Origin: a virus
Virus record (IMG/VR): IMGVR_UViG_3300047496_000072
Coordinates: 1 to 42,985 of that record
Length of the DNA stretch: 42,985 bases
Direction: 5' to 3' (one strand)
The translations under genes were made by a program, and so were the position numbers. Shown piece by piece: positions 128-35,667 of the stretch. The notes beneath the pieces were generated by a model. It did no database searches. It had not been told where the DNA came from and worked only from the letters and a program-made list of their open reading frames with translations. Within the stretch, counting starts at the first letter, position 1. Every line of letters begins with the position of its first letter.

Positions 128-1545
128 CCAATGTAGATGCCCACGTGGTCCACGCCGTTCGGGCCGGTGCCGAAGAACACGAGGTCCCCCGCCTGAGCCG
201 CCTTGGGGTCAACCTTGGTGGTCTTGTTGTACTGGTCCTGCGCCACCCGGGGCAACGAAATACCGGCCTGCTGATAGGACCACTGCACGAGACCCGAGCA
301 GTCGAATCCGGACCCGGGCGACTCGCCGCCCCACACGTAGTTGGTGCCCTGCTGTCCCAGGGCTGCGGTGATGGCCGACCCTCCAGCCAGACCACCGTGG
401 TTGGCAGGGTTGTGGGTGTAGGGGTCCACCGAGGGGGTCTTGCCGACCTGGCCACCAGCGATGTTGACCACGGCGGGCGGGCCAGCCTGGGCGGAGGTCT
501 GGTTCATGGAGTTGACGATCTGCTGGCCATAGGCGCCGATGGTCTCGGTGTTGCCAGCACTCGGGTAGGGGACGCTGTTCTGCTTCGAGGCGTCACCAGC
601 CCAGGCCGGGTAGTACCACGCCTCGGCGGTGTTCTGCCAGTTGCCGTACTGGTTGTAGAGGTTCAGGGCGTTGTACCTGGCCACGGCATCCTGCACGGCG
701 GGAGGAGCCTGACCGGCAGGGGCGTTGGCGTACTGGCCGTAGCCCGCCGCCTTGGCTTCGCTGGTCCAGGTGGACTGGATGTACTGGTAGGCGCCCGAGG
801 CCCCACCCTTGGCATTCTCAGCCTGGTAGTTACCACCCGACTCGTGCTGGCGGATGGCGGCGAGGAAGCTGTCCACGTCGGCGTTGCCCTTGGTGCCTTC
901 TGCGGAACCCGCCGCTGAAGCCTCGGAGGCGGTGGCGTCGGCCTGGGTGGCGGCAGCCGACTGCTGGTTCAGCTGGTCGGCCACAGCCTGCAGCTCGCCC
1001 TGTGAGGCATTGCGCCCGAGGAGCCGCTGGGCGGTGGCGTTGACAGTGCCCTCGATGTCGCTGGGGGCGAAGGTCTGCTGCTTCTCGCTGATCTGTGGGA
1101 TGGGGGCGGAGCCAACGCTGCCCGTGCTGGTGGAGTTCTGGGCGGCCGTGGTGAGGAAGTCCCCCATCTTCTGGCCAGAGTTGGAGGCGTCGATGGCCGC
1201 AGCCCGGAACGCCTTGCCATCCTCGTCGCCCCCCGAAAGGGTCCCCAGCTTGGGCTTTTTCGTGCCGTAGTACCCGGCGACGTAGAGGTCGTTCTGGATC
1301 GTGGCCAGCTGCGCCCGAGCCGCCGTGCTGGTGCTGGCTTCCTTGGCCAGCTTGTCCAGGGCACCCATCGCCTGGGCCACGGTGACGGACCCGATGGGCA
1401 GCCCCAGGAGAGCACCCACCCCGGTGACCTGCTGGGAGTCCTCGGCCGACAGACCGGCCGGGTTCACAGCGGTGACGTTCTGATTGGGCGACTGGAGGTT
1501 CAGCTGCCCGAAGAGTCCGGCGTAGTTCGTTTTCTGAGTGACCAT
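1..1545 (-). CDS. Tail lysin: transglycosylase-like plus NlpC/P60 domains (5' part)
   Basis: This is the N-terminal 515 codons of a 614-residue protein completed at the other end of the contig (to 42559). Residues about 228-290 resemble a lytic transglycosylase/Rpf fold: HESGGNYQ with likely catalytic Glu235, then GASGAYQYIQSTW. Residues about 400-485 are an NlpC/P60 peptidase with Cys416 in FDCSGLVQWS and His467 in DHVGIY. The protein therefore carries glycan-cutting and peptide-cutting domains, as expected of a virion enzyme that opens host peptidoglycan during DNA entry. The ATG overlaps the stop of the 1709-aa gene by one base (TGATG). It sits among internal-virion-type genes and not beside the holin-like genes, which argues for an entry role over a lysis role. 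No signal peptide is visible. Confidence 0.88.
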   Translation of the reverse strand, partial: MVTQKTNYAGLFGQLNLQSPNQNVTAVNPAGLSAEDSQQVTGVGALLGLPIGSVTVAQAMGALDKLAKEASTSTAARAQLATIQNDLYVAGYYGTKKPKLGTLSGGDEDGKAFRAAAIDASNSGQKMGDFLTTAAQNSTSTGSVGSAPIPQISEKQQTFAPSDIEGTVNATAQRLLGRNASQGELQAVADQLNQQSAAATQADATASEASAAGSAEGTKGNADVDSFLAAIRQHESGGNYQAENAKGGASGAYQYIQSTWTSEAKAAGYGQYANAPAGQAPPAVQDAVARYNALNLYNQYGNWQNTAEAWYYPAWAGDASKQNSVPYPSAGNTETIGAYGQQIVNSMNQTSAQAGPPAVVNIAGGQVGKTPSVDPYTHNPANHGGLAGGSAITAALGQQGTNYVWGGESPGSGFDCSGLVQWSYQQAGISLPRVAQDQYNKTTKVDPKAAQAGDLVFFGTGPNGVDHVGIYIGNDQMIVAPHTGTKVQVQSGVLERKDLVGVTSVTSNRMTPADW

Positions 1546-4500
1546 CAGCGCACTGCTTCCAGGGGTCCGTACTGCCACCTGAAGTTCTGATTGTAGAACG
1601 TCAGGAAGCCGGGGATTGTCTCAGCAAAGTCTACGGCATAAGTGCGGAGAATCCGTGTGTTGGTGCTGGCCTGAGAGTTATTGAACTTCCCACGGTAGAT
1701 GTCCTGGCCTACCTTCTGGGACGCCTCGATCCATTCGACCACCTTTTCGTGGCCCTGTTCCTTCATCTGCTGGGAGTAATCGGTGATCTGGGCGGCTGCC
1801 TTGGCGTAGTAGACGGAGGGGTCCTCGATCTGGAACGCAGGGTACTTCTGGTGCACCAGCTGGTCGATCAGGGTGGCATTGATGGTGGACCCGGCCCACT
1901 GGCCGTACTCATCGGGGTTGTTCCCCAGCTTGTACTTTGAGGTGTGGTGGGCGTTGTACTCCACGTACTTGGCCACGGCGGCGTTGAGCTGACGGCGGTA
2001 GGCGTAGGCGTCGGACAGCTGTGAGTCGGGAGTCTCGGCCACGGGGCGGGCGAAGAAGATTCCCGACTTGGCCGGGTGGAGCTGGTCCAGGCTCACCTGC
2101 TTCACGATGGCGGCCTGCTGGGTGATTTCCTGCACCACGTCCTGGAGTTCCCGGGCGGCAGGGACGAACCCCTTGATCGTTTGCACTCCCCCGGCGTCGG
2201 CGTTGTACTGCTGGGGCAGGAAGAGGTTGAGGATCGGGGCGTTGATCCCACCGAACTGGCCCAGGCCCACGCCATGGGCGAAGGCATTGAGCCGGAGGGC
2301 CTCCTGCGCTACAGGCATGTGCTTCTGCACCCAGCCCGAGGAGAGCAGCTTCGAGCCGGTCGGGTCGGCCATGTTGTACTCGTTGTACGCCTGGAGGCCA
2401 GCCGTCAGCATCATCCGCTGAGCGGTGTGATCCAGCATGTAGGCGCCCATGTTCCGGTACAGCGTCTTGTCGAACGAGAACGGGAAGAACACGAAGTTGA
2501 CCGACCGCTCCAGGGCACTGCGGCCCTCGCCGTAGGCGGCGGAACCGTACCCGAAGTCCTTGACCAGGTTGGCCTTGATTTCGGTGTTGGTGAGGCCCGC
2601 CTGCTTCCAGTGGTAGGCGGCATATGCCTCGTGGTCCCGGTGGTTGAACATCCCCCAGGGGTCCACGGCGTAGAGCGCCTGGGTGCCCTCGTCGTAGCTG
2701 TCGTTCTTCAGCTCCGGCATGGCCTTGTCCAGAATGCGGTGCGCCTCTTTGTAGACACCCATCTTGTCCATGGCGATCTTCGGGAAGAACGTGGGCGGCA
2801 CGCCATCGGCGCTGACCTTGACCATCGCCTTGACAACACGCCGCACAGAGAACTCCGGGGACAGCTGGAACCGGAACTTGTTACGGAGCGTGGCCAGGCG
2901 GGTGGGCAGGTTCTCCAACATGCGGCCAGCGGACCCGGGCACGGGGCGCCCCATGTAGCTCAACTTCTGAGCGGCCAGGTTCTCCACCTTCTGCAAGCCG
3001 AGGAGCCTGGTGGGCATATCGGCCTTGGCTTTCTGGATGGCCCGGTACACCTCGTGAATGTCGTCGTCGGTCATCAGCGGCCGCTCTTTATAGATGCGGC
3101 TGAGGGGCTGCAGGCCGCCGCTCACCTGGTCGGGGTTGTAGTGCCGGTACTCCAGCTCCCGAGCCAGCTGCGTTTCCTTCGGCACGTCCTCGTTGGCCCT
3201 ACGGCCCAGCACGCTCTTCAGGTCCTTCTCGGTGACGTGCATGAGGCCCAGCGAGTTCTCCACCTCGTTCGAGAGTTCCTGAGCAGCCAGCTGGCGAGCG
3301 GCAGGCTCGGTGATGGGGTTCCCGCTTGCGTCACCCTTGCGGAAGAACAGCTCGGTCAGCTTGTCCTCGCTCGCCTTGTAGGCCGAGGTCGGCGGCACGT
3401 GGCGCTGGATGAACGAGGCGATGCCCGGGTTGCTCTTGATCAGGTTCTTGTCCCGCAGCTCTGCGATGATCGTGTGGGCGTTGAAGTACGGAGGCAGCTG
3501 TCGGATGCCGCCAGTCGGCTCGGACTTGCCCTTCTCAATCTGGTTCTGCAGCTCGTTGTGCAGCCGAATGTTGAAGTCCAGCCCCATATTGGAGGAGGAG
3601 ATGTTCTCCGGCGACATGCCCAACCGCTCCACCAGGCGGCGTCCAGCGGACAGGTGGGAGTCGAACACGTCCAGCGCCGGGTGGTTGTAGAAGTCGAACC
3701 CAATCCCCTTACCCATGACAGGCATGTAGCCCAGCTCGTCCAGCCGGGCGAACGCCTCACGCAGCTGTGGCGACACGGGCAGGGTGCCCCCGGTCAGGTC
3801 GTTACGGACCCAGCGCACGATGCCCGCTCCCTGGTCGAAGGGGATGTACCCGTTGTCCTGGAGCTGCCCGGTGAGGAGCCGACGAGCGGCGGTCTCCGCC
3901 TGCGACTCGCCCCGGAGCGGACGAATCTCAACAGAGCGCACGCCGTTCAGCCCAGTGTCGGTGCGGCCAGCCTGGAACTTGGAGCGGTTCCGGAGTTCCT
4001 GGTACCGAGCGCCGGGGGCATTGAGGTCTCGCTGCCCCGTCAGCCCGGTCGGGTCGTGCTCGAAGGTGATCCCCTTGTTGGACTGCAGCTGGTTGCGGTC
4101 ATTGGCCCACTGGCGCACTTCGGGCTGGCTCTCGTGCAGGACCTCCATCGCCTGGCGAGGCGACGTGTTCAGGTACAGGGCGCCAGGAGTGTGCTGGTCC
4201 AGTGAGGCGGTGTCGGTCGGGCCGCTGCGGTTGAGGGTGACGGGCAGGTCGTCGGGCTTCGTGCGGACGGGGTGCTCCCGCAGGTAAATCTCGCTGGCCT
4301 GGTTCTCGGCCTTCTGGTGCAGCAGCTTGATCAACGTCATGTCGGAGGGGTTGTCGCTCGTGACGTTGGCAGGCATGTGGTCGGCGTCAATGCCGTAGTT
4401 CTCGAACAGATACCCAGCAATCTCCGACGTGATCCGCTGCACGTCCTTGGCGGCGTCGTCACTGCCCTCGCCACCAGCCTGCAGCCGGGAGAGTGCGTCG

Positions 4501-6674
4501 TTGTAACGGTCCTCCATGTCGGTGGCCTCGGCGGAAGCCACACCGGACGGCTTGTAGTCAGCCTTGCGGGCGACTCCGATGGTGCCACCGGGCACCTCGT
4601 CGTGGATCATTTCCGCACGGCGGGGCACGACAATCTCACGCATGATCTGAGACATCTCGTGGAAGTTCTCGGTATTGTCCTTGATCCACGAACGGGGAGA
4701 GGCGCTCGTTTTTTGTATCTCGGATGCGATGCGGTTGGACAGCTCGTTGTTGCCGCCCCAGTGAGGGATGCTCTTGTCGTGCGAAATCATTTCGGCCGCT
4801 GACCGCTGCAGGTCGGAGTGGTCGCCGTTGAGCGCCTTCTGGTACGCCTCGGTGGCGAGGTTGTTCAGCACCGAATACTGATCGCCAAACTCCTGGAGCT
4901 GTGTGGCCTGCTCGTCCTTCGGCATCTTCGCCCACTCCACCTCCGCATAGTGAGCGGCGGCGTGCTGGTACACCTTGTTGGTCCAGAACCGGATGAAGTT
5001 GGAGTCTCCACCAGCGGCCTCCACCAGGTCGGCGTGGGACAGCGGTGCCTCGCCCTGACCGCTGGCCAGCTGCCGGATCGACCGAGAGTTGCGGCCTGCG
5101 TTCACGCCCCGCACGATGGCGGTGCCGAGACCGGACGACCCCATGGCCTCCTGCATGGCGTCGTTGGCGCCAGTCACGTCGGACCCAACCGAGGCGGAGA
5201 TGGTGCCGGGGCCGGTGAGCGGCGGGTGCAGCACCCACGCCAGTGTGTTCAGCCCGGGGGAAATGTGGTGGCCCAGGACGGTGAACCCCAGCTTGGCCTG
5301 GAGCATGTCATCGAGCTGGTTGATCCGCTGCATGTGGTCGATGGACTGCGACAGTTCCGAAGGGCTGCCCTGCACGATGGATTGGGCGGTTCCGATCCCC
5401 CTGATCTTGGCACCCGCCACACCGAGCTGACCGATGGCGGTCCCGGCCGTCCGCACGGGGGCGTAGGCGTAGGGACGGGCCAGCAGCGTGCGAGCACGGT
5501 AGTAGGAACCCTCCTCACCCAGAATCTTGTCGACCAGTGGCCCCGTCATCTTCAGGATGGGCGTGTTGGCGACAGCCTTCGAGGACAGCACCCCGGTGGC
5601 ACCACCCTCAGCCTGTGTCGGCGCCTTGTAGAGCGTCTTGGCGATGACCCCGGGACCACGCCGGGCGGCGGCGGCGTCCAACCCCTCAGCGGCGTTGTCT
5701 CCAGCGGCAGCGGCCACAGCCCCACCGGCCTTGAAGAGGCCGTGGGTAGCCAGCACGTCACCGAGAATCTGCAGGGCGTCGGTCTCCTGCCCCCGGAACC
5801 CCTGCTCCTCGTAGGAGGTGGCCGGAGTGATGTTCTTGGGCTGGCCGATGGCTCCCTGCACCACATTCTCTGCCGGAGCGGCGTAGCCCGCCATGGCTCG
5901 GTGGATGTCGGCGGAACTCTTGACGGTCTCCTGCGGGTGGGTGAGCAGCTGGAATCCGCCTGCGAACCCACCGGCCACATTGCGAAGATCACCGGCAGCG
6001 GAGTGAGGTACGGAGGCGACGAACCCGGCGACGGCGGTGGCAGCCTGCCGGGGAAGCAGGGAGTTGAACACGCCCAGCGCCCGGCCCAGCGGAGTAGACC
6101 CCGCCTGGCTGCCACCCAGCTCGGCCGTCTTGGCCGCCTGAACGTACTGCGAATACGCGCCGTTCCACCCATTGTTCCACACGCCGTTCGTGGGGAGGCC
6201 CTGGCCGTAGCCCTTGGCGGCGAGCTGCTTCTGGACGTGAACGAGGTCGCCGTCCTGCAGCGGCCACGGGCCGATGGTGTTGGTCAGGTAGCTCCGCACG
6301 GCGAGGCCCAGGCTCGGGTCCTTCTGGAGGAGCGGGTCCTCGGTGAGGTAGTGGATCGAGCCATCCACGGAGCCGTATGCCTTTCGGAGCACAGCAGCCA
6401 TGCCACCCAGCGCCCGATCCGTACCTCCGGTCATAGCCAGGGTGGCGGCGGTCTGCGGTGGCATCCAGCCGTGCACCTTGCTCAGCCCGACAAAGCGGTC
6501 GGCGAAGTTGTCTACAGGTTCCTTCCGGGCGGCCGGGTGGTTCGGGGCCAGCTGGGTGTCGGTCGGCTTCGGCTGGGTCGGGTCCTGCGGTATCTCGGCC
6601 GGAACGGAGTCGGCGCCCATCGCCGGGTGCGGGTTGGGAGCAAAGACGCCTGTGGCGTTAGGGTTCCCGGCCAC
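1545..6674 (-). CDS. Very large virion protein (1709 aa), probable internal virion/ejection protein
   Basis: This is the largest gene in the genome, 1709 codons from a GTG that overlaps the stop of the previous gene (TAGTG). I recognise no catalytic domain. The sequence is mostly soluble and helical, with an Ala/Gly-rich N-terminal third, long charged helices in the middle and an aromatic segment near the C-terminus (NFVFFPFSFDKTLYRNM) that resembles motifs in giant virion proteins of other phages. It lies between the packaging genes and the tail lysin, the place where podovirus-type phages carry large ejected proteins comparable in size to T7 gp16 or N4-type virion proteins. The role is inferred from size and position. 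Long open frames on the opposite strand reflect GC-rich codon use. Confidence 0.8.
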   Translation of the reverse strand: MAGNPNATGVFAPNPHPAMGADSVPAEIPQDPTQPKPTDTQLAPNHPAARKEPVDNFADRFVGLSKVHGWMPPQTAATLAMTGGTDRALGGMAAVLRKAYGSVDGSIHYLTEDPLLQKDPSLGLAVRSYLTNTIGPWPLQDGDLVHVQKQLAAKGYGQGLPTNGVWNNGWNGAYSQYVQAAKTAELGGSQAGSTPLGRALGVFNSLLPRQAATAVAGFVASVPHSAAGDLRNVAGGFAGGFQLLTHPQETVKSSADIHRAMAGYAAPAENVVQGAIGQPKNITPATSYEEQGFRGQETDALQILGDVLATHGLFKAGGAVAAAAGDNAAEGLDAAAARRGPGVIAKTLYKAPTQAEGGATGVLSSKAVANTPILKMTGPLVDKILGEEGSYYRARTLLARPYAYAPVRTAGTAIGQLGVAGAKIRGIGTAQSIVQGSPSELSQSIDHMQRINQLDDMLQAKLGFTVLGHHISPGLNTLAWVLHPPLTGPGTISASVGSDVTGANDAMQEAMGSSGLGTAIVRGVNAGRNSRSIRQLASGQGEAPLSHADLVEAAGGDSNFIRFWTNKVYQHAAAHYAEVEWAKMPKDEQATQLQEFGDQYSVLNNLATEAYQKALNGDHSDLQRSAAEMISHDKSIPHWGGNNELSNRIASEIQKTSASPRSWIKDNTENFHEMSQIMREIVVPRRAEMIHDEVPGGTIGVARKADYKPSGVASAEATDMEDRYNDALSRLQAGGEGSDDAAKDVQRITSEIAGYLFENYGIDADHMPANVTSDNPSDMTLIKLLHQKAENQASEIYLREHPVRTKPDDLPVTLNRSGPTDTASLDQHTPGALYLNTSPRQAMEVLHESQPEVRQWANDRNQLQSNKGITFEHDPTGLTGQRDLNAPGARYQELRNRSKFQAGRTDTGLNGVRSVEIRPLRGESQAETAARRLLTGQLQDNGYIPFDQGAGIVRWVRNDLTGGTLPVSPQLREAFARLDELGYMPVMGKGIGFDFYNHPALDVFDSHLSAGRRLVERLGMSPENISSSNMGLDFNIRLHNELQNQIEKGKSEPTGGIRQLPPYFNAHTIIAELRDKNLIKSNPGIASFIQRHVPPTSAYKASEDKLTELFFRKGDASGNPITEPAARQLAAQELSNEVENSLGLMHVTEKDLKSVLGRRANEDVPKETQLARELEYRHYNPDQVSGGLQPLSRIYKERPLMTDDDIHEVYRAIQKAKADMPTRLLGLQKVENLAAQKLSYMGRPVPGSAGRMLENLPTRLATLRNKFRFQLSPEFSVRRVVKAMVKVSADGVPPTFFPKIAMDKMGVYKEAHRILDKAMPELKNDSYDEGTQALYAVDPWGMFNHRDHEAYAAYHWKQAGLTNTEIKANLVKDFGYGSAAYGEGRSALERSVNFVFFPFSFDKTLYRNMGAYMLDHTAQRMMLTAGLQAYNEYNMADPTGSKLLSSGWVQKHMPVAQEALRLNAFAHGVGLGQFGGINAPILNLFLPQQYNADAGGVQTIKGFVPAARELQDVVQEITQQAAIVKQVSLDQLHPAKSGIFFARPVAETPDSQLSDAYAYRRQLNAAVAKYVEYNAHHTSKYKLGNNPDEYGQWAGSTINATLIDQLVHQKYPAFQIEDPSVYYAKAAAQITDYSQQMKEQGHEKVVEWIEASQKVGQDIYRGKFNNSQASTNTRILRTYAVDFAETIPGFLTFYNQNFRWQYGPLEAVR

Positions 6675-14817: not shown

Positions 14818-14964
14818 GGTGCCAGCCCCCGGGATTCGAACCCGGTAGCTGCACCATCATAGCCCGGACACGGCGAGGCCCCCCGGGCAAGGGAACCGAG
14901 GGGCCTACAAGCCGTGCACACAACCACAGTCCACTGACGGATGCGGAGCGTCAGTCGGGCTGCC
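14818..14964 (-). ncRNA. tRNA-like structured RNA candidate
   Basis: On the minus strand a perfect T-arm (CCGGG-TTCGAAT-CCCGG, about 14831-14847) is followed by GGGCTGGC then ACC, like a tRNA 3' end with a discriminator A. The putative 5' end (GGCAGCCC, 14964-14957) can pair with GGGCTGGC, seven of eight positions. Between them are a 7-bp hairpin (ACTGACG/CGTCAGT, loop of 9) and a large compound stem (CACGGC/GCCGTG enclosing AGGCCCC/GGGGCCT). No normal D-arm or anticodon arm is evident, and about 147 nt is too long for a tRNA. A promoter sits just upstream. It may be a tRNA remnant, a tRNA mimic or an unusual ncRNA. Confidence 0.4.
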
Positions 14965-16921: not shown

Positions 16922-17179
16922 TCACCATGACGGCCGCTGTCGCACCATGAGTGGTGTCTGCCGTGGCTCCTGGCCCTCGGGAACAATCACAGTGCACGGT
17001 GTGGACCCACGGCGGGAGATTGAGAAGGCGTCGGTTGTGATCCACACCCTGAATCCATCAGTGTAAGTCCCAGTGACCAGGCCCACCATTCCGCCGAGAC
17101 CACGGGCGGATTGTGGCTCTACCAGGAAGTCACCCGCCCGCACGACAGAGAAAGTGACGGTTATCCGGTCTCCTCTCAT
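16922..17179 (-). CDS. Small hypothetical protein (85 aa) after the amidotransferase gene
   Basis: The ATG overlaps the stop of the class II amidotransferase-like gene (ATGA), so it is probably co-translated. The product looks beta-rich (RGDRITVTFSVVRAGDFLV, then GLVTGTYTDGFRVWITTDAF) with a basic C-terminus. No family is recognised. Coupling to the amidoligase set makes a role in the same pathway possible but unproven. Confidence 0.65.
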   Translation of the reverse strand: MRGDRITVTFSVVRAGDFLVEPQSARGLGGMVGLVTGTYTDGFRVWITTDAFSISRRGSTPCTVIVPEGQEPRQTPLMVRQRPSW

Positions 17180-18336
17180 GTTGCCTGGTCCAGTGCGAGA
17201 CCATCGGTAACCACGTATGGCACGAGAAGTGCATCGTTGGCGGGATCGACGGCCCAGGTGCGACCATCATCGGCCAGGTACAACCCGGTGTCAGGGTCCC
17301 AGTGCCCTTCAATGATGGGCACGCCTTGAGGAGTGAACCGTTGCTCCGTCACCGGGGCAGTCTCGGTCTCCTCCTCCTCCTCGTCCTCGGCACTGTCTGA
17401 CACGTTGTCCTCCAACCAATCGGCGCCGTCAAGGACGTCGGCGACCAGCTTCTCCAGCTCCCGGGCATCTCCTCCAACCCAGGCCCGTATATCATCGGGT
17501 TCCACGCACAGCAGGTCTGCCGCATGTTCCAGGCGTATCTGCCCTTCCGTTTGGGCCGGGACGGTCCTCCTGTAGAACGGGAGCAGCTCACCCCCCGGCC
17601 CTCGGGTGGTTCCCTCGGTCGCCGTGGTCATGGTGGCCCGAATGATCCGACCCTCATTGTTGCTCGTGAGTGTCCTCTCGGCACGCCTGGTCCGGTTGCC
17701 CCCCCACACTGCGGGAGTGCTAGTGCCCTGGTGTCCATGCCCGGTCCACCTCTCCCCATCCACGTAGCGGGGGCGGGTGCGAGCATGGGACAGATGGTGT
17801 GAGTACCAGCACGAGGTCCGCTGAGACCAGTGACCCTTCTCCTCATTCCAAATGATGCACCGGCCACCACGTTCCCGGCGTGCCGACAGGAGAACGACCT
17901 TGTTCGACTTGAGCCAGGCCTCGGTCTCGGCTTTGGTGTCCTGAAGTTCCTTCCAAGTCATCCCGGCAATGTGATCCTCGGCGAGAATGCGGGAGTCCGA
18001 ACGGTTGCCCCACGGCCCATCATGCAGGGGCATGACGCCGTTGTGTAGGAGCATCCACGGTTCGCCGGGAACCTGGAACGGGTGAGTATTCTCCTCATTG
18101 ACTCCGCCCTGGGTTGCGATGCGTGCGTGGAAGATTCCCCAACATTCGGGATGCTTATCCTGTTCCCGTAGGAAACCGTCAATGATGCGTTTTGCGTCCA
18201 ACGGATCCCGGTCACTGATCAAGTTGCCCCGGTAGCTGATCACGAACCCGAAACCGTCCGGATTCTCAAAACAGGCGTCGAGCAGGTCGTCCCGGGGGAT
18301 ACGTTCTCCAGGTGGTGCTGCGATGATGACACACAC
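17176..18336 (-). CDS. Class II glutamine amidotransferase-like (Ntn hydrolase) protein with acidic C-terminal extension
   Basis: The GTG start places Cys at residue 2 (MCVIIAAPPG), the expected N-terminal nucleophile of class II glutamine amidotransferases once Met is removed. Further family-like motifs are FHARIATQGG (69-78), NTHPF (83-87), LLHNGV (96-101) and a Ser-Asp-Ser near 114. Such domains release ammonia from glutamine or act as related Ntn hydrolases. After about residue 185 there is a separate region with an acidic run (EDEEEEETETAP) and a C-terminal segment EGHWDPDTGLYLADDGRTW. It follows the amidoligase gene by four bases in the same operon, matching the known association of phage amidoligases with such proteins. 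Substrate unknown. Confidence 0.85.
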   Translation of the reverse strand: MCVIIAAPPGERIPRDDLLDACFENPDGFGFVISYRGNLISDRDPLDAKRIIDGFLREQDKHPECWGIFHARIATQGGVNEENTHPFQVPGEPWMLLHNGVMPLHDGPWGNRSDSRILAEDHIAGMTWKELQDTKAETEAWLKSNKVVLLSARRERGGRCIIWNEEKGHWSQRTSCWYSHHLSHARTRPRYVDGERWTGHGHQGTSTPAVWGGNRTRRAERTLTSNNEGRIIRATMTTATEGTTRGPGGELLPFYRRTVPAQTEGQIRLEHAADLLCVEPDDIRAWVGGDARELEKLVADVLDGADWLEDNVSDSAEDEEEEETETAPVTEQRFTPQGVPIIEGHWDPDTGLYLADDGRTWAVDPANDALLVPYVVTDGLALDQAT

Positions 18337-18340
18337 GGTA

Positions 18341-19738
18341 CTAGGCCCTTTCGTGGGTCTCGGGTCCCGGCGAAATCGGGACGATGAATGAAACTCCTCG
18401 GTTAGCGCACAGCTGCGCTACGTGTTGCGTCTGCCCATCCTCCAGGTGGTCCAGACACCATTCTCCGAACCGTTCCCAGGTCACCTGGTCCCGGGTTGCG
18501 GGTGAGACTTTGACCTCACCGGAGAACTTGATCAGTGCGTCAATAAACGCACACTGTCCCAGGACCGACGATGCACACAAGGTGCCCTTCCAGTACCGGA
18601 GTTCGATAGTCTCGGGATTGACATTGATTGCCACGGAACGATCACCCTTGCTTTCCTTCCCGGCAATGACCCTTAATGGCGACTGCGGGCCGCTGGGCCG
18701 TTCAATGACGGAGTGCTCTAATCTCCAAGTGCGGATACGTTGCTCGTGAAAGTGGTCCAGGAGATAGGAGCTGGAGTACCCGCCATTAGGTGTCAGGTTG
18801 CGATCGTACACACTCCGTTCAACGGGTGTGAGGTTGGCCACGATCATGGGATGACCGGGACGTGGCGGGATGATGGGCCGTTGGCCCGGTTCCCGTTTCT
18901 TGGGCCATGCCGCATAGTGGGCATCCTGGCGCCCGGCCAACTTCACACACTGGTCCCGAAAGGCTGAGACCTGGAGCCACGAGAACAGGTACTCGTGTGC
19001 CCGGCCGTGGAAGGCCTTACGGGATACGTGAGCATGTAGTCCGGTGGACTCGTGCCCCCACGCCCTGCCACCTAGCGCCACGATCTCACCCAACACGCCG
19101 TCCAATCCCTCCGCCACAAGGTAGCGGTAGGTGCTCGGGTGCGTTTTGCACTCGGCGCCCGTTCGCAGTGAGCTGTCGTGCGTCGTCCATCCTAGGCCAG
19201 ACTCAAACCAGGCGACCACGATGTCCTGCACGTCCCCGTTAGGACATTCGGTTTCAATCTCCAGGCCCAGGTACGGTGCCCTGTCGGGCGCCACCGGGTA
19301 GCGGCCACCACTCCCCCGCCGCCTCATTTCTCGGGAGAGAGTAGAGAACGGTTGGGCAACCGGGTTGCCCTGGTCACTCACCTTGCAGTAGTTGACGGTT
19401 GGCGGAACGGCGCCGTATCCCATAACGGTTCGCATGGCACACTGGCAGGAACCGTCGCACGTGAAACCGCCGCAGGGTGCCCCGGTGCGCCCCTGGCACT
19501 CGTGATACCGCCGCTGGCCCTGCTCCTCGCAACCGGGGCAGGGAACACACCCGCAGGAAATGTCCCGGTGACCGCAGTGTCCACAAATCTCGTGGATGCG
19601 GGTAGGGATACGCCGATCCATACTGTCATACCCGATAGCGTCCCGGGTTGGCTCATCCTCGGGACGTGGCCGATGGTTCCTCATACCGGACGCACGTTGC
19701 TCCTCGCAGTCCCAGCAATAACACTCTCGCAGTGGCAC
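18341..19738 (-). CDS. Amidoligase (glutamine-synthetase-like fold) with N-terminal Cys-rich region
   Basis: The 465-aa product starts at GTG 19738, behind AGGAGGT. Residues about 6-100 hold some 17 cysteines in CxxC-type pairs (CYCWDC, CGHCGH, CGCVPCPGC, CDGSCQC), probably zinc fingers. From about 155 the sequence fits the phage amidoligase family: GLEIETE (158-164), CKTHPS, GLHAHVSR (233-240) and TIELRYWKG (377-385), which correspond to acidic, His and Arg/Glu residues of the COOH-NH2 ligase fold. These enzymes are predicted to form amide bonds using ATP. It precedes the class II amidotransferase-like gene and faces an ATP-grasp gene across a shared control region. The family call is fairly firm; the substrate is unknown. 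Confidence 0.85.
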   Translation of the reverse strand: MPLRECYCWDCEEQRASGMRNHRPRPEDEPTRDAIGYDSMDRRIPTRIHEICGHCGHRDISCGCVPCPGCEEQGQRRYHECQGRTGAPCGGFTCDGSCQCAMRTVMGYGAVPPTVNYCKVSDQGNPVAQPFSTLSREMRRRGSGGRYPVAPDRAPYLGLEIETECPNGDVQDIVVAWFESGLGWTTHDSSLRTGAECKTHPSTYRYLVAEGLDGVLGEIVALGGRAWGHESTGLHAHVSRKAFHGRAHEYLFSWLQVSAFRDQCVKLAGRQDAHYAAWPKKREPGQRPIIPPRPGHPMIVANLTPVERSVYDRNLTPNGGYSSSYLLDHFHEQRIRTWRLEHSVIERPSGPQSPLRVIAGKESKGDRSVAINVNPETIELRYWKGTLCASSVLGQCAFIDALIKFSGEVKVSPATRDQVTWERFGEWCLDHLEDGQTQHVAQLCANRGVSFIVPISPGPETHERA

Positions 19739-19785
19739 CCTTGCCTACCTCCTGCCCCCGGGAGTCCTCCCAGGTGGCATGAGGT

Positions 19786-19814
19786 ACACTGAACCTATCA
19801 GAAGGGAATGTCAA
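19786..19814 (-). promoter_or_regulatory. Amidoligase operon promoter, TTGACATTCC motif
   Basis: On the minus strand TTGACA (19814-19809) and CAGTGT (19791-19786) are 17 bases apart, and the predicted transcript has a leader of about 40 bases with AGGAGGT. The sequence reads TTGACATTCC, ten variable bases, then GTTCAG-T-GT. The divergent copy at 19872-19900 has the same frame. Confidence 0.5.
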
Positions 19815-19881
19815 CCCTCTTCCCGAAATAGCCTTCTGACCTGGGATTATGTAACTTTTTCATAATACCCCTTGACATTCC
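19805..19881. repeat. Nested inverted repeats between the divergent ligase genes
   Basis: The outer arms GGAATGTCAA (19805-19814) and TTGACATTCC (19872-19881) are a perfect 10-bp inverted repeat. An inner AT-rich dyad ATTATG/CATAAT lies at 19846-19851 and 19861-19866. The arrangement suggests one regulator controlling both directions. Confidence 0.6.
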
Positions 19882-19900
19882 AGGCGGAGGAGTTCAGAGT
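19872..19900 (+). promoter_or_regulatory. ATP-grasp promoter or operator, TTGACATTCC motif
   Basis: TTGACA (19872-19877), 17 bases and CAGAGT (19895-19900). A start 6-7 bases on would fall at the ATG (19907), giving a leaderless transcript. GGAGGAG within the spacer argues instead for a promoter further up, such as CATAAT at 19861-19866, with this motif acting as an operator. Confidence 0.4.
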
Positions 19901-19906
19901 GCCCGC

Positions 19907-20605
19907 ATGATCGTTTCATCATCCCGAAGGGTTCGGGGTAGTGGTGAGGCTTTGGAACGTGCCCTAGTGGCGGCAGGCTATAACGGCCCGCACGTCAACT
20001 ACGGCGCAAGCTGGAGCACTCACCCGGGAGCGCTGAACAGTCCGGAGTCAATCGGGCGGGCCGCTAATAAGCGGGTCGCACTGGAGACCATGCGGGCCGC
20101 TGGAGTTCCTACCCTGTTCCTACCGGGACCAATAGAGGAAGTGAACACGTGGCCTTGCGTGGCCCGGCGAGACTTCCACCAGGGCGGTAGGGGATTCTTT
20201 CTCTGCCATTCCAGGCGGGAGCTGGACCGAGCTATCAGGAAGGGTGCTACTCACTGCCAAACGTACCTGGAGGGTGCCCGGGAGTTTCGGGTGCACGTGT
20301 TCCAGGGGCAATCAATCAAACTCTCTGAGAAGATAGGAGGAGGAAACCATAGAACGGGTGCAACTTTTGTGCACCCTCGGGAGTTCGGTCACCGTAAGCG
20401 GCTGCGGCAGGCCGCTAAGGGTGCTGTCCTGGCCCTGGGCCTGGACTTTGGCGCCGTTGACCTCCTATGGAAGAGGGTAGAGGACCCAGGCGGATACGTG
20501 GACGTGTGCGCCGTCCTGGAGGTCAACACTGCCCCACGGTTGACTGATGCCACCAGCGACACACTGGCCCGGTACGTCAGTGCACTCATGCGGGTGCCAG
20601 AGTGA
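19907..20605 (+). CDS. ATP-grasp ligase
   Basis: The 232-aa product has the ATP-grasp hallmarks in order: a helical start with NKRVALETMRAAGVPT, the strand and Gly-rich nucleotide loop VARRDFHQGGRGFFL (86-99), YLEGAREFRVHVF with Glu126 and Arg128, FGAVDLLW with Asp185, and LEVNTAPRL with Glu205 and Asn207 as metal-binding residues. These enzymes join a carboxylate to an amine or thiol through an acyl-phosphate. The protein is short for the family, as are other phage copies. It is divergent from the amidoligase operon and shares its control motif, so the two ligases probably act in one pathway, such as building a peptide tag, modifying a protein or making a small metabolite. The substrate is unknown. 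Confidence 0.9.
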   Translation: MIVSSSRRVRGSGEALERALVAAGYNGPHVNYGASWSTHPGALNSPESIGRAANKRVALETMRAAGVPTLFLPGPIEEVNTWPCVARRDFHQGGRGFFLCHSRRELDRAIRKGATHCQTYLEGAREFRVHVFQGQSIKLSEKIGGGNHRTGATFVHPREFGHRKRLRQAAKGAVLALGLDFGAVDLLWKRVEDPGGYVDVCAVLEVNTAPRLTDATSDTLARYVSALMRVPE

Positions 20606-23801: not shown

Positions 23802-24089
23802 ATGGTAACCAAACTGAACGTCGGCGCTGTGCTGAACTTCGACCAGACGAGCATCCTGGTGACTATCGGGAATCGGAACAGTCGGACCACAGTTTCCGTG
23901 GCGCTGACCATTGACCAGGGTGACGAACTCCTGGAGCAGCTGCGCCACTGCATGAACGAGGTGCACAGCGAGGAGCTGTACGAGGAGTACCTGGACCGCC
24001 AGGGACTCACCCACGAGCAGGCGCTGGACGTGATGCTGCGCTCGGATGACCTGGAAGTCGTCCAGATCGACCAGGGGACCATCGGATGA
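23802..24089 (+). CDS. Hypothetical protein (95 aa) before the annealing protein
   Basis: ATG 23802 is preceded by GGAGGAG. The N-terminal half is beta-rich (VTKLNVGAVLNFDQTSILV, then TTVSVALTIDQGDELLEQL) and the C-terminal half is acidic and helical. Its stop overlaps the ATG of the Rad52-type gene. It may assist recombination, but only the coupling suggests this. Confidence 0.7.
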   Translation: MVTKLNVGAVLNFDQTSILVTIGNRNSRTTVSVALTIDQGDELLEQLRHCMNEVHSEELYEEYLDRQGLTHEQALDVMLRSDDLEVVQIDQGTIG

Positions 24090-24589
24090 ACTACTTGCCC
24101 GACGAAGGTGTATTCTGGACACAGCTGGAGCAGCTCTTCAAGCCGATCAACACCAACCGGGTGCAGAAGCGGCAGGGACAGAGCTACCTGGAGTCCTGGG
24201 ACGTTGCCGCCCACCTCACCCGCATCTTCGGCCCGCTCAACTGGAGCACCAAGCTGCTGGCCAGCGACCTGGTGTTCGAGGAGAAGAGAGAGACCGGGAA
24301 GTGGGACGTGTGCTACCGGGCGTTCATGCGGCTGGAGGTCAACACCGACCGGGGAGCGTGGGCAGGGCCGTGTATCCACGAAGATGTTGGCACCGGCACC
24401 GCCAGCAACCAGCCCGACCGTGGCAGTGCCCACGACCAGGCGCTCAAGACGGCAGCGAGTGACGCCATGAAGCGGTGTGCTCGCCTGCTGGGCAACCAGT
24501 TCGGGCTGTCGCTGTACGACGGCGGCTCGGTAGGAACGGTGGTCAGCAGCTCGCTGGCCCACCCCAACCCCTTTGAGGAGGGCCAATGA
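24086..24589 (+). CDS. Rad52/22-type single-strand annealing protein
   Basis: The 167-aa product matches the Rad52/Rad22 family pattern found in phages: YLESWDVAAHLTRIFGPLNW near residue 35, a central strand region (WDVCYRAFMRLEV), then GTGTASNQPDRGSAHDQALK, TAASDAMKRCARLLGNQFG and LSLYD. These proteins form rings that anneal complementary strands during phage recombination and replication. The C-terminal tail (HPNPFEEGQ) is short, so this is the annealing core alone. No partner exonuclease is recognised nearby. SSB is about 3 kb upstream in the same block. Confidence 0.88.
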   Translation: MNYLPDEGVFWTQLEQLFKPINTNRVQKRQGQSYLESWDVAAHLTRIFGPLNWSTKLLASDLVFEEKRETGKWDVCYRAFMRLEVNTDRGAWAGPCIHEDVGTGTASNQPDRGSAHDQALKTAASDAMKRCARLLGNQFGLSLYDGGSVGTVVSSSLAHPNPFEEGQ

Positions 24590-33148: not shown

Positions 33149-34258
33149 TCACAGGAAATCTCCAATCAGATTGGCCACTGCTTCAACATCCCCCCTATAA
33201 GGGGTGGGGTGCAGGCCCACGAACAGGCCCTCCTCGTCCACACGGTCGGCGCCAGGGGTCGGGCCGAAGTAGAAGCCCGTGAACGCCCGCTGGTTCCGCA
33301 GGTTGCCCGCCAGGATGGGCCGTGTCTCCACACCGTTCTCCTCCAGGTACGCCGCCAGAGCGTCCCGCTGCTTGGCCTCCACGAACATGGGGATGCCGAA
33401 CCATGACGGGGTGCAGTGCTCGGGTACGTCCATGAGGCGCACGCTGGGGTGGTCGGCCATGTACCGAGCGAAGTGGTTGTAGTTCGCCGTGCGGTTCCGA
33501 ATGAAGTCGTCCACCTTAGCCAGCTGCACCAGCCCGATGGCGGCCTGCACCTCAGTGGGCCGCAGATTGAACCCGGGGCCGTCGAAGGTGTACTTGTCGT
33601 CGCTCTTGTGGCGAGTCCAGCCGTGGCTGCGGAGCGAGCGGTACTTGTCGGCCGTCACATGGTCATTGGTGGTGACCATGCCACCCTCCATCGTGGTCAT
33701 GTGGTGGGAGAAAAAGAACGACCAGCTGGCATCGCCGTGTGCACCCACCGACGCCAAGGTTGCGTCCTTCGCACCCAGCGCCTCGCAACAGTCCTCGGTG
33801 ATGTAGGGCCACTTGCTCGGGTCCGGGTTGTGGAGGATTGACCTGAGCAGTTCGCCAATGTCCACCGGCACGCCCATCAAGTGCGGGATGCTGATGGCCT
33901 TGGTCCGAGAGGTCAGCGCCTGTTCTACCAGCTCAGAGGTGGTATTCACTCCGTCCACGTCGCAGAACTTCACGTCCCACCCGGCCATCTCCCACGCCCA
34001 CGCATGGGTCGGCCACGTCACGGCGGGAATGATCACCTGCCCTCGGATGGGGGGTGCCCACGCCATGAGCAGGTCGGCGGAGCTGCCGCTGTTGACCATG
34101 ACTGCGTGCGGCACGCCGACGTAGCGTGCGAACGCCTCCTCGAACTCCTCCACCTTCTCCCCCATGGTGGTCTTGCCACTGAGCACCACCTCGTAGGCGG
34201 AGTTGGCCTCCTCCCAGTCCATGGTGGACTCAGCTAAGGGGTACCAGTATTCGCCCAC
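33149..34258 (-). CDS. PLP-dependent sugar 3-dehydratase-like protein (DegT/ColD type, Lys-to-His)
   Basis: GTG 34258 follows GGAGGAG and gives 369 aa. It is a DegT/DnrJ/EryC1/StrS-family protein: SGSSAD (57-62), IIPAVTWPTHAWA, ITEDCCEALGA with Asp156, and SFFFSHHMTTMEGGMV (180-195). The PLP-binding Lys that should precede the EGG motif by six residues is His185. That replacement is the signature of GDP-4-keto-6-deoxymannose 3-dehydratase (ColD) and the related E1 dehydratase, which remove a sugar hydroxyl and do not run ordinary transamination. It probably makes a 3-deoxy or 3,6-dideoxy nucleotide sugar. Its neighbours are two glycosyltransferase-type genes. The exact substrate is inference. 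Confidence 0.85.
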   Translation of the reverse strand: MGEYWYPLAESTMDWEEANSAYEVVLSGKTTMGEKVEEFEEAFARYVGVPHAVMVNSGSSADLLMAWAPPIRGQVIIPAVTWPTHAWAWEMAGWDVKFCDVDGVNTTSELVEQALTSRTKAISIPHLMGVPVDIGELLRSILHNPDPSKWPYITEDCCEALGAKDATLASVGAHGDASWSFFFSHHMTTMEGGMVTTNDHVTADKYRSLRSHGWTRHKSDDKYTFDGPGFNLRPTEVQAAIGLVQLAKVDDFIRNRTANYNHFARYMADHPSVRLMDVPEHCTPSWFGIPMFVEAKQRDALAAYLEENGVETRPILAGNLRNQRAFTGFYFGPTPGADRVDEEGLFVGLHPTPYRGDVEAVANLIGDFL

Positions 34259-35667
34259 TTGGCTTTCTCCTCCTCCAGGATGGTGTCGGTGAGGCTCTGG
34301 CCGGTGCCGTACTTCTGGTGGCACGTCGGGCAGTACGCCTGCCGATCCATCAGTTCCTTCATCTTCTCGGCCTGCCACGGCAGCAGCCCGTGGTCCCCTG
34401 CGTCCCACACCTCGTTGCCGTTCCCGTCGATGACGGGTGTCTCTGACTTGGCAATGTCGATCAGCCCAGCCTCGAAGAGGATGCGCTTCACGTCGCCCGA
34501 CACTCGGTACTCCTCGCCCGGCTCGAAGGCCATGATGTTGCCGCCGATGTCAGCCTTGTGGTGCTTCAGCAGGACCACCTTGTAGAGCTTCCCGGACGGC
34601 TCGTACCAGTTCAGCTGGCCACCCTGGAAGGGAGTCAGCCGCTCCCGGCCGATGGCGTCGATGAACCCGGTGGCGGTGTTCTTCCAGTTGAACTCGGCCA
34701 GGGCGAGCGGGGCGTTTTCCTTGGCCCGCTCCACACACTCGGCGTACTCCTCGTAGACGTAGCGCATGTACTCACAGAGCTGGCCGTAGTCAGGCTCCCA
34801 CCACACGCCGCTGTCGCCATAGACGAAGGCGCCCGCCTTCTCCAGCTTGGACTCCAGGGGCATCCCGTAGTGGGCGAACGCCTCGTGGCCGTGGGCACCC
34901 GTGAGGATGGTGGGGAGTCCCTGCACGATGGCCTGGAGGGGCTGGAGGCCGAAGCCCTCGCCCCGGGCGGCACCGATGTAGCAGTGGGCGTTGGCGTACA
35001 GGTCAATCTCGGCCTCGGGTGGGATGTACCCGGTGACGTGTTCGATCCTCTCGCCGTAGTAGTTCTCCGGCCGAGGGGCCTTCATCACCAGGTAGGGCGT
35101 GGGCTGGTCCTGGCGCCAAGAACCCTCCGGGAACACCTCCCGGAACGCCTCATACACCAGGTCAGTGCCCTTGCGCTGGCCACGGCCACCCACCAGGAAG
35201 TTGAACCGGGTGGTGGGCATGGTGCGGGGGACATAGAACCACTGCTTAGGGTCCACCCCCAGGGGCACGTACTTGACGTTGTGGTGGTACTCCGAGAACA
35301 ACTCCTGGTTCTGCCGGGACGGCACGATCAGGGTATCGAACTCGTGGAAGTTTTCCCGGAACACGGCGGGCAGGTGGTTGGTCTCGTACATGGTGTAGAG
35401 GACAGTCGTCTGCCCCTTCCACCAGCCCCGGGCGTGGGCCGGGACGGAGGCCCATGCCACGATGTTCGTCATGCCCTCTCGGGGCTTGCCACCGAATGCC
35501 TCGTAGGCGCTCTCGTCGTCCAGGACGTAGGTGTTGGGGGCGTCAGCGATGTTGTCGTAGACGGTGATCCCCTGCTTCTCCACCTCTTCTCCCAGGTGGA
35601 CGCCCATGCGGCCGTAGCCGATCTGAGCGGAGCGGACACGGAAGAGGGTGATTTCAGGCTGCGACAT
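34234..35667 (-). CDS. GT4-type glycosyltransferase with C-terminal Cys motif (477 aa)
   Basis: ATG 35667 lies inside the end of the macro-domain gene. The sequence is GT-B-like: an N-terminal Rossmann region (YGRMGVHLGEEVEKQGITVY, FDTLIVPSRQNQELF), KYVPLGVDPKQWF, RFNFLVGGRGQRKGTDLVYE, then YIGAARGEGFGLQPLQAIVQ with the E-x7-E-type acceptor/nucleotide site near Glu247. An extra C-terminal region (about 355-477) has a VVLLKHHKADIGGNIMAF segment and CPTCHQKYG. It likely transfers a sugar, perhaps the product of the neighbouring dehydratase, to a virion protein, phage DNA or host glycan. Confidence 0.85.
   Translation of the reverse strand: MSQPEITLFRVRSAQIGYGRMGVHLGEEVEKQGITVYDNIADAPNTYVLDDESAYEAFGGKPREGMTNIVAWASVPAHARGWWKGQTTVLYTMYETNHLPAVFRENFHEFDTLIVPSRQNQELFSEYHHNVKYVPLGVDPKQWFYVPRTMPTTRFNFLVGGRGQRKGTDLVYEAFREVFPEGSWRQDQPTPYLVMKAPRPENYYGERIEHVTGYIPPEAEIDLYANAHCYIGAARGEGFGLQPLQAIVQGLPTILTGAHGHEAFAHYGMPLESKLEKAGAFVYGDSGVWWEPDYGQLCEYMRYVYEEYAECVERAKENAPLALAEFNWKNTATGFIDAIGRERLTPFQGGQLNWYEPSGKLYKVVLLKHHKADIGGNIMAFEPGEEYRVSGDVKRILFEAGLIDIAKSETPVIDGNGNEVWDAGDHGLLPWQAEKMKELMDRQAYCPTCHQKYGTGQSLTDTILEEEKAKWANTGTP

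Follow-up and report, generated by a model that had tools for sequence, protein, structure and literature searches.

A divergent phage amidoligase-glutamine amidotransferase cassette with an ATP-grasp ligase as an optional third member

Phages are known that carry an amidoligase together with a class-II glutamine amidotransferase (GAT), in part also with an ATP-grasp ligase, and Iyer, Aravind and colleagues reportedly predicted combinations of such ligases in phages. Here, we describe a gene set of this type, spanning 3.4 kb of the IMG/VR-type virus record IMGVR_UViG_3300047496_000072, whose whole stretch of 42,985 bases is referred to as the window. An earlier note on this DNA had tied the set to those predicted combinations, and the tie holds: the locus is a divergent member of a cassette already known from many phages. 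The "peptidoglycan modification cassette" of phiEco32/LUZ24-type phages has been published (PMC5498523), and for related cassettes a peptidoglycan target and superinfection exclusion have been proposed (PMC5498523, PMC10580990). In UFV-P2 and LUZ24-like phages, amidoligase, GAT, and ATP-grasp are listed side by side (PMC3890496), and OM43 phages carry an amidoligase-GAT pair (PMC10580990). The three-enzyme set was also found in Escherichia phage KBNP1711, Citrobacter phage CVT22, and an Alcaligenes phage.

Like the window, the cassettes of phiEco32, LUZ24, RIO-1, and PSA-HP1 (Iyer et al. 2009; Hardies et al. 2013; Duhaime et al. 2017) combine an amidoligase with a class-II GAT and an ATP-grasp ligase of the same family; their amidoligase, however, is of another, zinc-less type, their GAT is longer, and a COOH-NH2 ligase as well as a gamma-glutamyl cyclotransferase is often added. 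Searches of the window record for the cyclotransferase (PF06094) and for a second COOH-NH2 ligase (PF14395) gave no match. With gp105-gp106 of mycobacteriophage Marvin (cluster S), it has in common the adjacent order, the Cys-rich N-terminus, and the amidoligase and short-GAT subtypes, the two GATs being 30% identical over 217 amino acids (aa). Unlike the window, Marvin has no phrog_2599 ATP-grasp, its GAT retains a C-terminal Cys cluster, and its amidoligase is without the insertion present in that of the window. The OM43 phages MEP401 and MEP402 likewise share the adjacent pair, a Cys-containing amidoligase N-terminus, and the early-gene position, but have no ATP-grasp. A Cys-rich amidoligase, a short GAT, and an ATP-grasp occur together in the IMG/VR contigs L118, L136, and L185, where all three genes lie on one strand, whereas the ATP-grasp gene of the window is divergent, as in L112, L113, and L154. 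Peculiar to the window are this arrangement over a paired 26-bp element, a GAT that has lost its zinc cluster, and the amidoligase insertion.

The open reading frames (ORFs) and motifs described in the earlier note were found at the positions it gave, and a hidden Markov model search together with profile comparisons confirmed the three enzyme families it had named, namely by matches to PF13230 and phrog_2599 and, for the amidoligase, by profile; in alignments, each of the three proteins has its catalytic residues intact. A direct Pfam search of the amidoligase gave no match to PF12224, even at E≤10. Despite this failure, the protein matched phrog_16683 in the PHROG search (8.5e-7) and Marvin gp105 in a two-sequence BLASTP comparison (4e-9), and it could be aligned with Marvin gp105, MEP402 gp06, and the ctgrD200 amidoligase; 31 of the 33 aligned members match PF12224. 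A leave-one-out profile of 32 viral relatives, with the window excluded, recovered the window protein at 6e-36 (shuffles reported, 0/1000), and a profile-profile comparison with PF12224-positive phage amidoligases gave 98.4% probability with an E-value of 8.6e-15, where E-values of custom profiles refer to small sequence sets. By profile homology, the protein is assigned as a divergent Amidoligase_2-type ligase. A tblastn search for the amidoligase in phages found no match, which marks a limit of sensitivity, as the two-sequence comparison and the profiles do find relatives; similarly, single-protein scans of viral contigs returned nothing, whereas alignment queries did recover relatives. A nucleotide search with 4 kb of the window against the phage collection was without match. 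Thirteen residues are invariant in the amidoligase alignment (G158, E160, E162, D188, S190, G233, H235, H237, R367, N372, T377, E379, and R381), and the motifs GxExE, D-x-S, G-x-H-x-H, and T-x-E-x-R correspond to invariant columns in both alignments of relatives.

The catalytic domain comprises approximately residues 153 to 431, with an insertion at approximately 283 to 361 that is atypical of the family; this insertion, like the disordered tail of the GAT, was read from the alignments and from low model confidence. In the AlphaFold2 model, the predicted local distance difference test (pLDDT) value of the catalytic core is approximately 90, with confident regions at approximately 150 to 270 and 370 to 440, and the overall mean pLDDT is 57. 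The best matches of the model in the PDB were YbdK and 1tt4 (approximately 5e-4), followed by glutamine synthetase and, weakly, Dop (0.028); the model is thus supportive of a glutamine synthetase/gamma-glutamylcysteine synthetase (GS/GCS)-like fold, if by itself not strong evidence for it. Residues 5 to 121 form a Cys-rich stretch that most likely binds zinc. This N-terminus had been considered unusual; however, at least two CxxC-type motifs precede GxExE in 72 of the 72 IMG/VR amidoligases with a complete N-terminus, and it is therefore a trait of the family. The Cys-repeat profile of the N-terminal approximately 200 aa of other IMG/VR amidoligases (L035, L039, and others) bears a resemblance to LIM domains of known structure (1.4e-5). 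LIM homology was not adopted, since Cys spacing alone could yield such similarity.

The GAT matched PF13230 (GATase_4) with 25.2 bits at a cut-off of 23 and phrog_25883 at 1.4e-19 in the PHROG search. Cys2, which adjoins the initiator Met, Arg72, Asn99-Gly100, and Asp114 are invariant across 19 sequences, and the protein is classified from these features as a short class-II (N-terminal nucleophile, Ntn) glutamine amidotransferase with predicted glutaminase and ammonia transfer functions. In the model, the domain of residues 1 to 184 is ordered and confident, and the tail (residues 185 to 386) is acidic or disordered; the matches were the GlmS glutaminase domain (1xff, 6.7e-8) and EgtC (6.6e-6). 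The C-terminal Cys cluster conserved in the GATs of most relatives is lost from that of the window. 7-Deazaguanine DNA modification (GAT-QueC) was considered and rejected, PF06508 (QueC) being without match anywhere in the record.

The ATP-grasp ligase matched phrog_2599 at 1.3e-27 in the PHROG search, with the conserved residues N54-K55, R88, E126-x-R128, K142, N147, and E205-x-N207, and its nearest viral relatives are found in L112 (44% identity) and L113 (41%). Membership in the R2K clade was discarded, R2K_2 (PF18299) reaching 13.2 bits at a cut-off of 26.2. The amidoligase and GAT genes, both on the minus strand, are separated by 4 bp, and the ATP-grasp gene lies outside their operon because it is located on the opposite strand and transcribed divergently (Table 1). 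The intergenic region in between contains an imperfect 32-nt inverted repeat with arms at 19783-19814 and 19872-19903. Identical TTGACATTCC-N10-GTTCAG elements at 19789-19814 (minus strand) and 19872-19897 (plus strand) face outward, fronting the amidoligase and the ATP-grasp gene, respectively; the element occurs once per strand in this region and nowhere else in the record. Among 600 dinucleotide shuffles of the region, one equalled the inverted-repeat score, as did 2 of 505 other 168-nt windows taken from the phage; the paired element had been noticed first and was scored afterwards. It suggests a candidate shared operator or promoter, i.e., shared control of both transcripts. A sigma-70 scan of the intergenic region found no consensus promoter. 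In L113 and L154, where the divergent region is longer, the inverted repeats differ from that of the window.

Table 1. Positions of the enzyme genes and adjoining features in the window
Feature	Position	Strand	Description
GAT	17176-18336	-	386 aa, GTG start, Cys is residue 2
Amidoligase (Amidoligase_2 / COOH-NH2 ligase, glutamine-synthetase-like fold predicted)	18341-19738	-	465 aa, GTG start
RimK-like ATP-grasp ligase	19907-20605	+	232 aa; divergent from amidoligase-GAT pair
Divergent intergenic region	19739-19906		168 bp, imperfect inverted repeat
85-aa ORF	16922-17179	-	4-bp overlap of ORF start with GAT stop

Gene neighborhoods were surveyed from both sides. An amidoligase alignment search of IMG/VR yielded 80 loci, the neighbors of which were scored with custom profiles, and an ATP-grasp alignment search yielded another 80, with the reference locus L111 left out of the counts. 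Both sets consist of the best-scoring matches and are not random samples, and the loci are metagenomic fragments, so that absences hold for the DNA examined. The survey bore out the previously proposed functional link between amidoligase and GAT: wherever the contig continues (75 of 75 loci; the remaining 5 contigs end at this point), the GAT gene lies directly downstream of, and on the same strand as, the amidoligase gene. The loci are not independent, as the 72 longer amidoligases represent approximately 32 sequence clusters. In bacterial assemblies, the pair was present in at least 16 of 18 loci, again without the ATP-grasp gene. The bacterial loci with the pair are mostly from Clostridia (L103, L106, and others). 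Seen from the amidoligase side, an ATP-grasp of the phrog_2599 type was found in 0 of 80 loci (within 6 kb) and in 0 of 33 whole records carrying the pair; in positive controls, it was found in 4 of 4, the window among them. Seen from the ATP-grasp side, an amidoligase was detectable within 8 kb in 67, a GAT in 72, and both in 63 of the 80 loci, which refutes the possibility that the three genes never occur together; 18 loci (11 clusters) contain the same amidoligase and GAT subtypes as the window. Some loci scored as amidoligase negative do appear to hold a divergent one, e.g., L112 and L113, where an amidoligase-like ORF and a GAT-II gene are located on the strand opposite the ATP-grasp gene, as in the window; their motifs ELExQ, DGS, GMHI, and FEYR were read by eye, with no significant profile match. 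The layout of L154 is divergent as well. Beside the ATP-grasp gene of L112, which encodes the nearest relative, a gamma-glutamyl-cyclotransferase-like ORF (5153-5560, minus strand) was recognized by eye. Amidoligase and GAT are fused in one ORF of L032, but this ORF was not taken for a natural fusion: the N-terminal Met-Cys of the GAT is missing from it, and it equals L034 minus an internal stretch, so that an assembly deletion is likely. Taken together, the two surveys identify the pair as the core and the ATP-grasp ligase as a recurrent, optional third member that is seldom found without the pair. The view of the three genes as one set therefore stands for the amidoligase and the GAT and falls for the ATP-grasp ligase as a fixed member.

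The earlier note had also coupled the 85-aa ORF to the set. The overlap with the GAT stop is real; the ORF had no Pfam match and a single marginal PHROG match (0.04), and relatives of the 85-, 165-, and 224-aa ORFs were absent from the 91 loci searched, so that the 85-aa protein cannot be assigned to the enzyme set. Pfam and PHROG searches identified terminase, major capsid, tail, endolysin, single-stranded DNA-binding, and Rad52-like genes in the record, the last of these (PF04098, 1e-26) encoding an annealing protein in the early region (24086-24589, plus strand). A tRNA-Asp (gtc) gene is located at 14821-14898 (minus strand), and a 1709-aa ORF at 1545-6674 (minus strand) was without match in both searches. 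Within the block of virion genes, a DegT/DnrJ/EryC1 aminotransferase gene (PF01041, 7e-67) adjoins one for a GT4-like glycosyltransferase (33149-35667, minus strand); judged by family, these could serve amino-sugar decoration of the particle.

Class-II GATs free ammonia from glutamine, ligases with a GS/GCS fold activate carboxylates at the expense of ATP, and ATP-grasp ligases couple a carboxylate with an amine. In our best explanation, to which we give an even chance, the predicted products would perform glutamine-dependent carboxylate amidation and amino acid ligation, most likely on a host envelope peptide as the predicted substrate. Because the pairing is obligate, GAT and amidoligase are viewed as one enzyme, in which the GAT would cleave glutamine and pass ammonia (or a held gamma-glutamyl group) to the adjacent GS-fold amidoligase, and the latter would activate a carboxylate with ATP, turning it into an amide. 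With zinc most likely bound, the Cys-rich N-terminus may aid in holding the substrate or the partner, and the ATP-grasp ligase would attach an amino acid to the peptide concerned or to a related one. The likeliest target would be the peptidoglycan stem, altered after infection, e.g., to shut out other phages; this envelope and exclusion role, the most likely of the readings and ranked first, follows the proposals for phiEco32-, LUZ24-, and RIO-1-type phages. The earlier note had offered a virion protein, a host protein, or a molecule active against host defence as putative targets, whereas the published proposal is peptidoglycan of the host. Several points weigh against this explanation. The closest relatives of the pair lack the ATP-grasp gene in the 80 loci and 33 whole records, and the pair must therefore be useful alone. 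The window is without the cyclotransferase and the second ligase of the full proteobacterial-phage cassettes, and the peptide chemistry borrowed from these may thus not transfer. Finally, by analogy with EgtC, Ntn domains of GATs can act as plain amidohydrolases.

Alternatively, and with a distinctly smaller but appreciable chance, the Cys-rich (zinc-type) amidoligase and the GAT would be the two subunits of a dedicated, glutamine-dependent amide synthase, a type separate from that of phiEco32 and widespread among phages of the environment. Early in infection, this synthase would amidate a single defined carboxylate of the host; the ATP-grasp ligase would then be a second step acquired later under the same phage operator. 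It is unlikely that the two proteins of the pair install and remove a gamma-glutamyl group, with the amidoligase adding gamma-glutamyl or an amino acid in the manner of EgtA or YbdK and the Ntn protein acting as a hydrolase rather than an ammonia donor. EgtC removes a gamma-glutamyl group in ergothioneine synthesis, and its match to the GAT model is joined by the top PDB match of the amidoligase model, YbdK, a GCS2-type ligase, and by the gamma-glutamyl cyclotransferase of related cassettes, including the candidate in L112; however, the best match of the GAT is the GlmS glutaminase domain, the glutamine-holding residues are retained, and EgtC is an independent enzyme, whereas inseparable amidoligase and GAT genes fit a complex. 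Tagging of a host or phage protein with amino acids by the Cys-rich amidoligase and the RimK-like ATP-grasp ligase is quite improbable. RimK acts on ribosomal protein S6, PafA works with Pup, and known tagging systems do without a GAT. The family label of the ATP-grasp ligase, S6 glutaminyl transferase, would fit such a function but derives from homology alone; Dop, a GS-fold pupylation enzyme, appears among the fold matches, albeit weakly; and relatives have LIM-like Cys repeats, which suggests binding of macromolecules. No better founded is the view that two unrelated neighbors are present, i.e., a Marvin-type pair in one pathway and the ATP-grasp ligase in another, as the opposite strands and the lack of an ATP-grasp in any close relative of the pair would allow, for the ATP-grasp gene is rare without both partners nearby, its closest relatives L112 and L113 repeat the divergent layout, and the starts of the amidoligase and ATP-grasp genes each adjoin a copy of one element.

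Predictions of amidoligase-GAT cassettes in phages date back to 2009, and in the literature searched we found no reaction reported as proven. Our survey narrows the problem to a two-gene core of fixed order, i.e., a Cys-rich ligase and a short GAT, with an optional ATP-grasp ligase. Such a core lends itself to co-expression and activity assays; as a laboratory model, phages of the Marvin type that infect Mycobacterium smegmatis are available.

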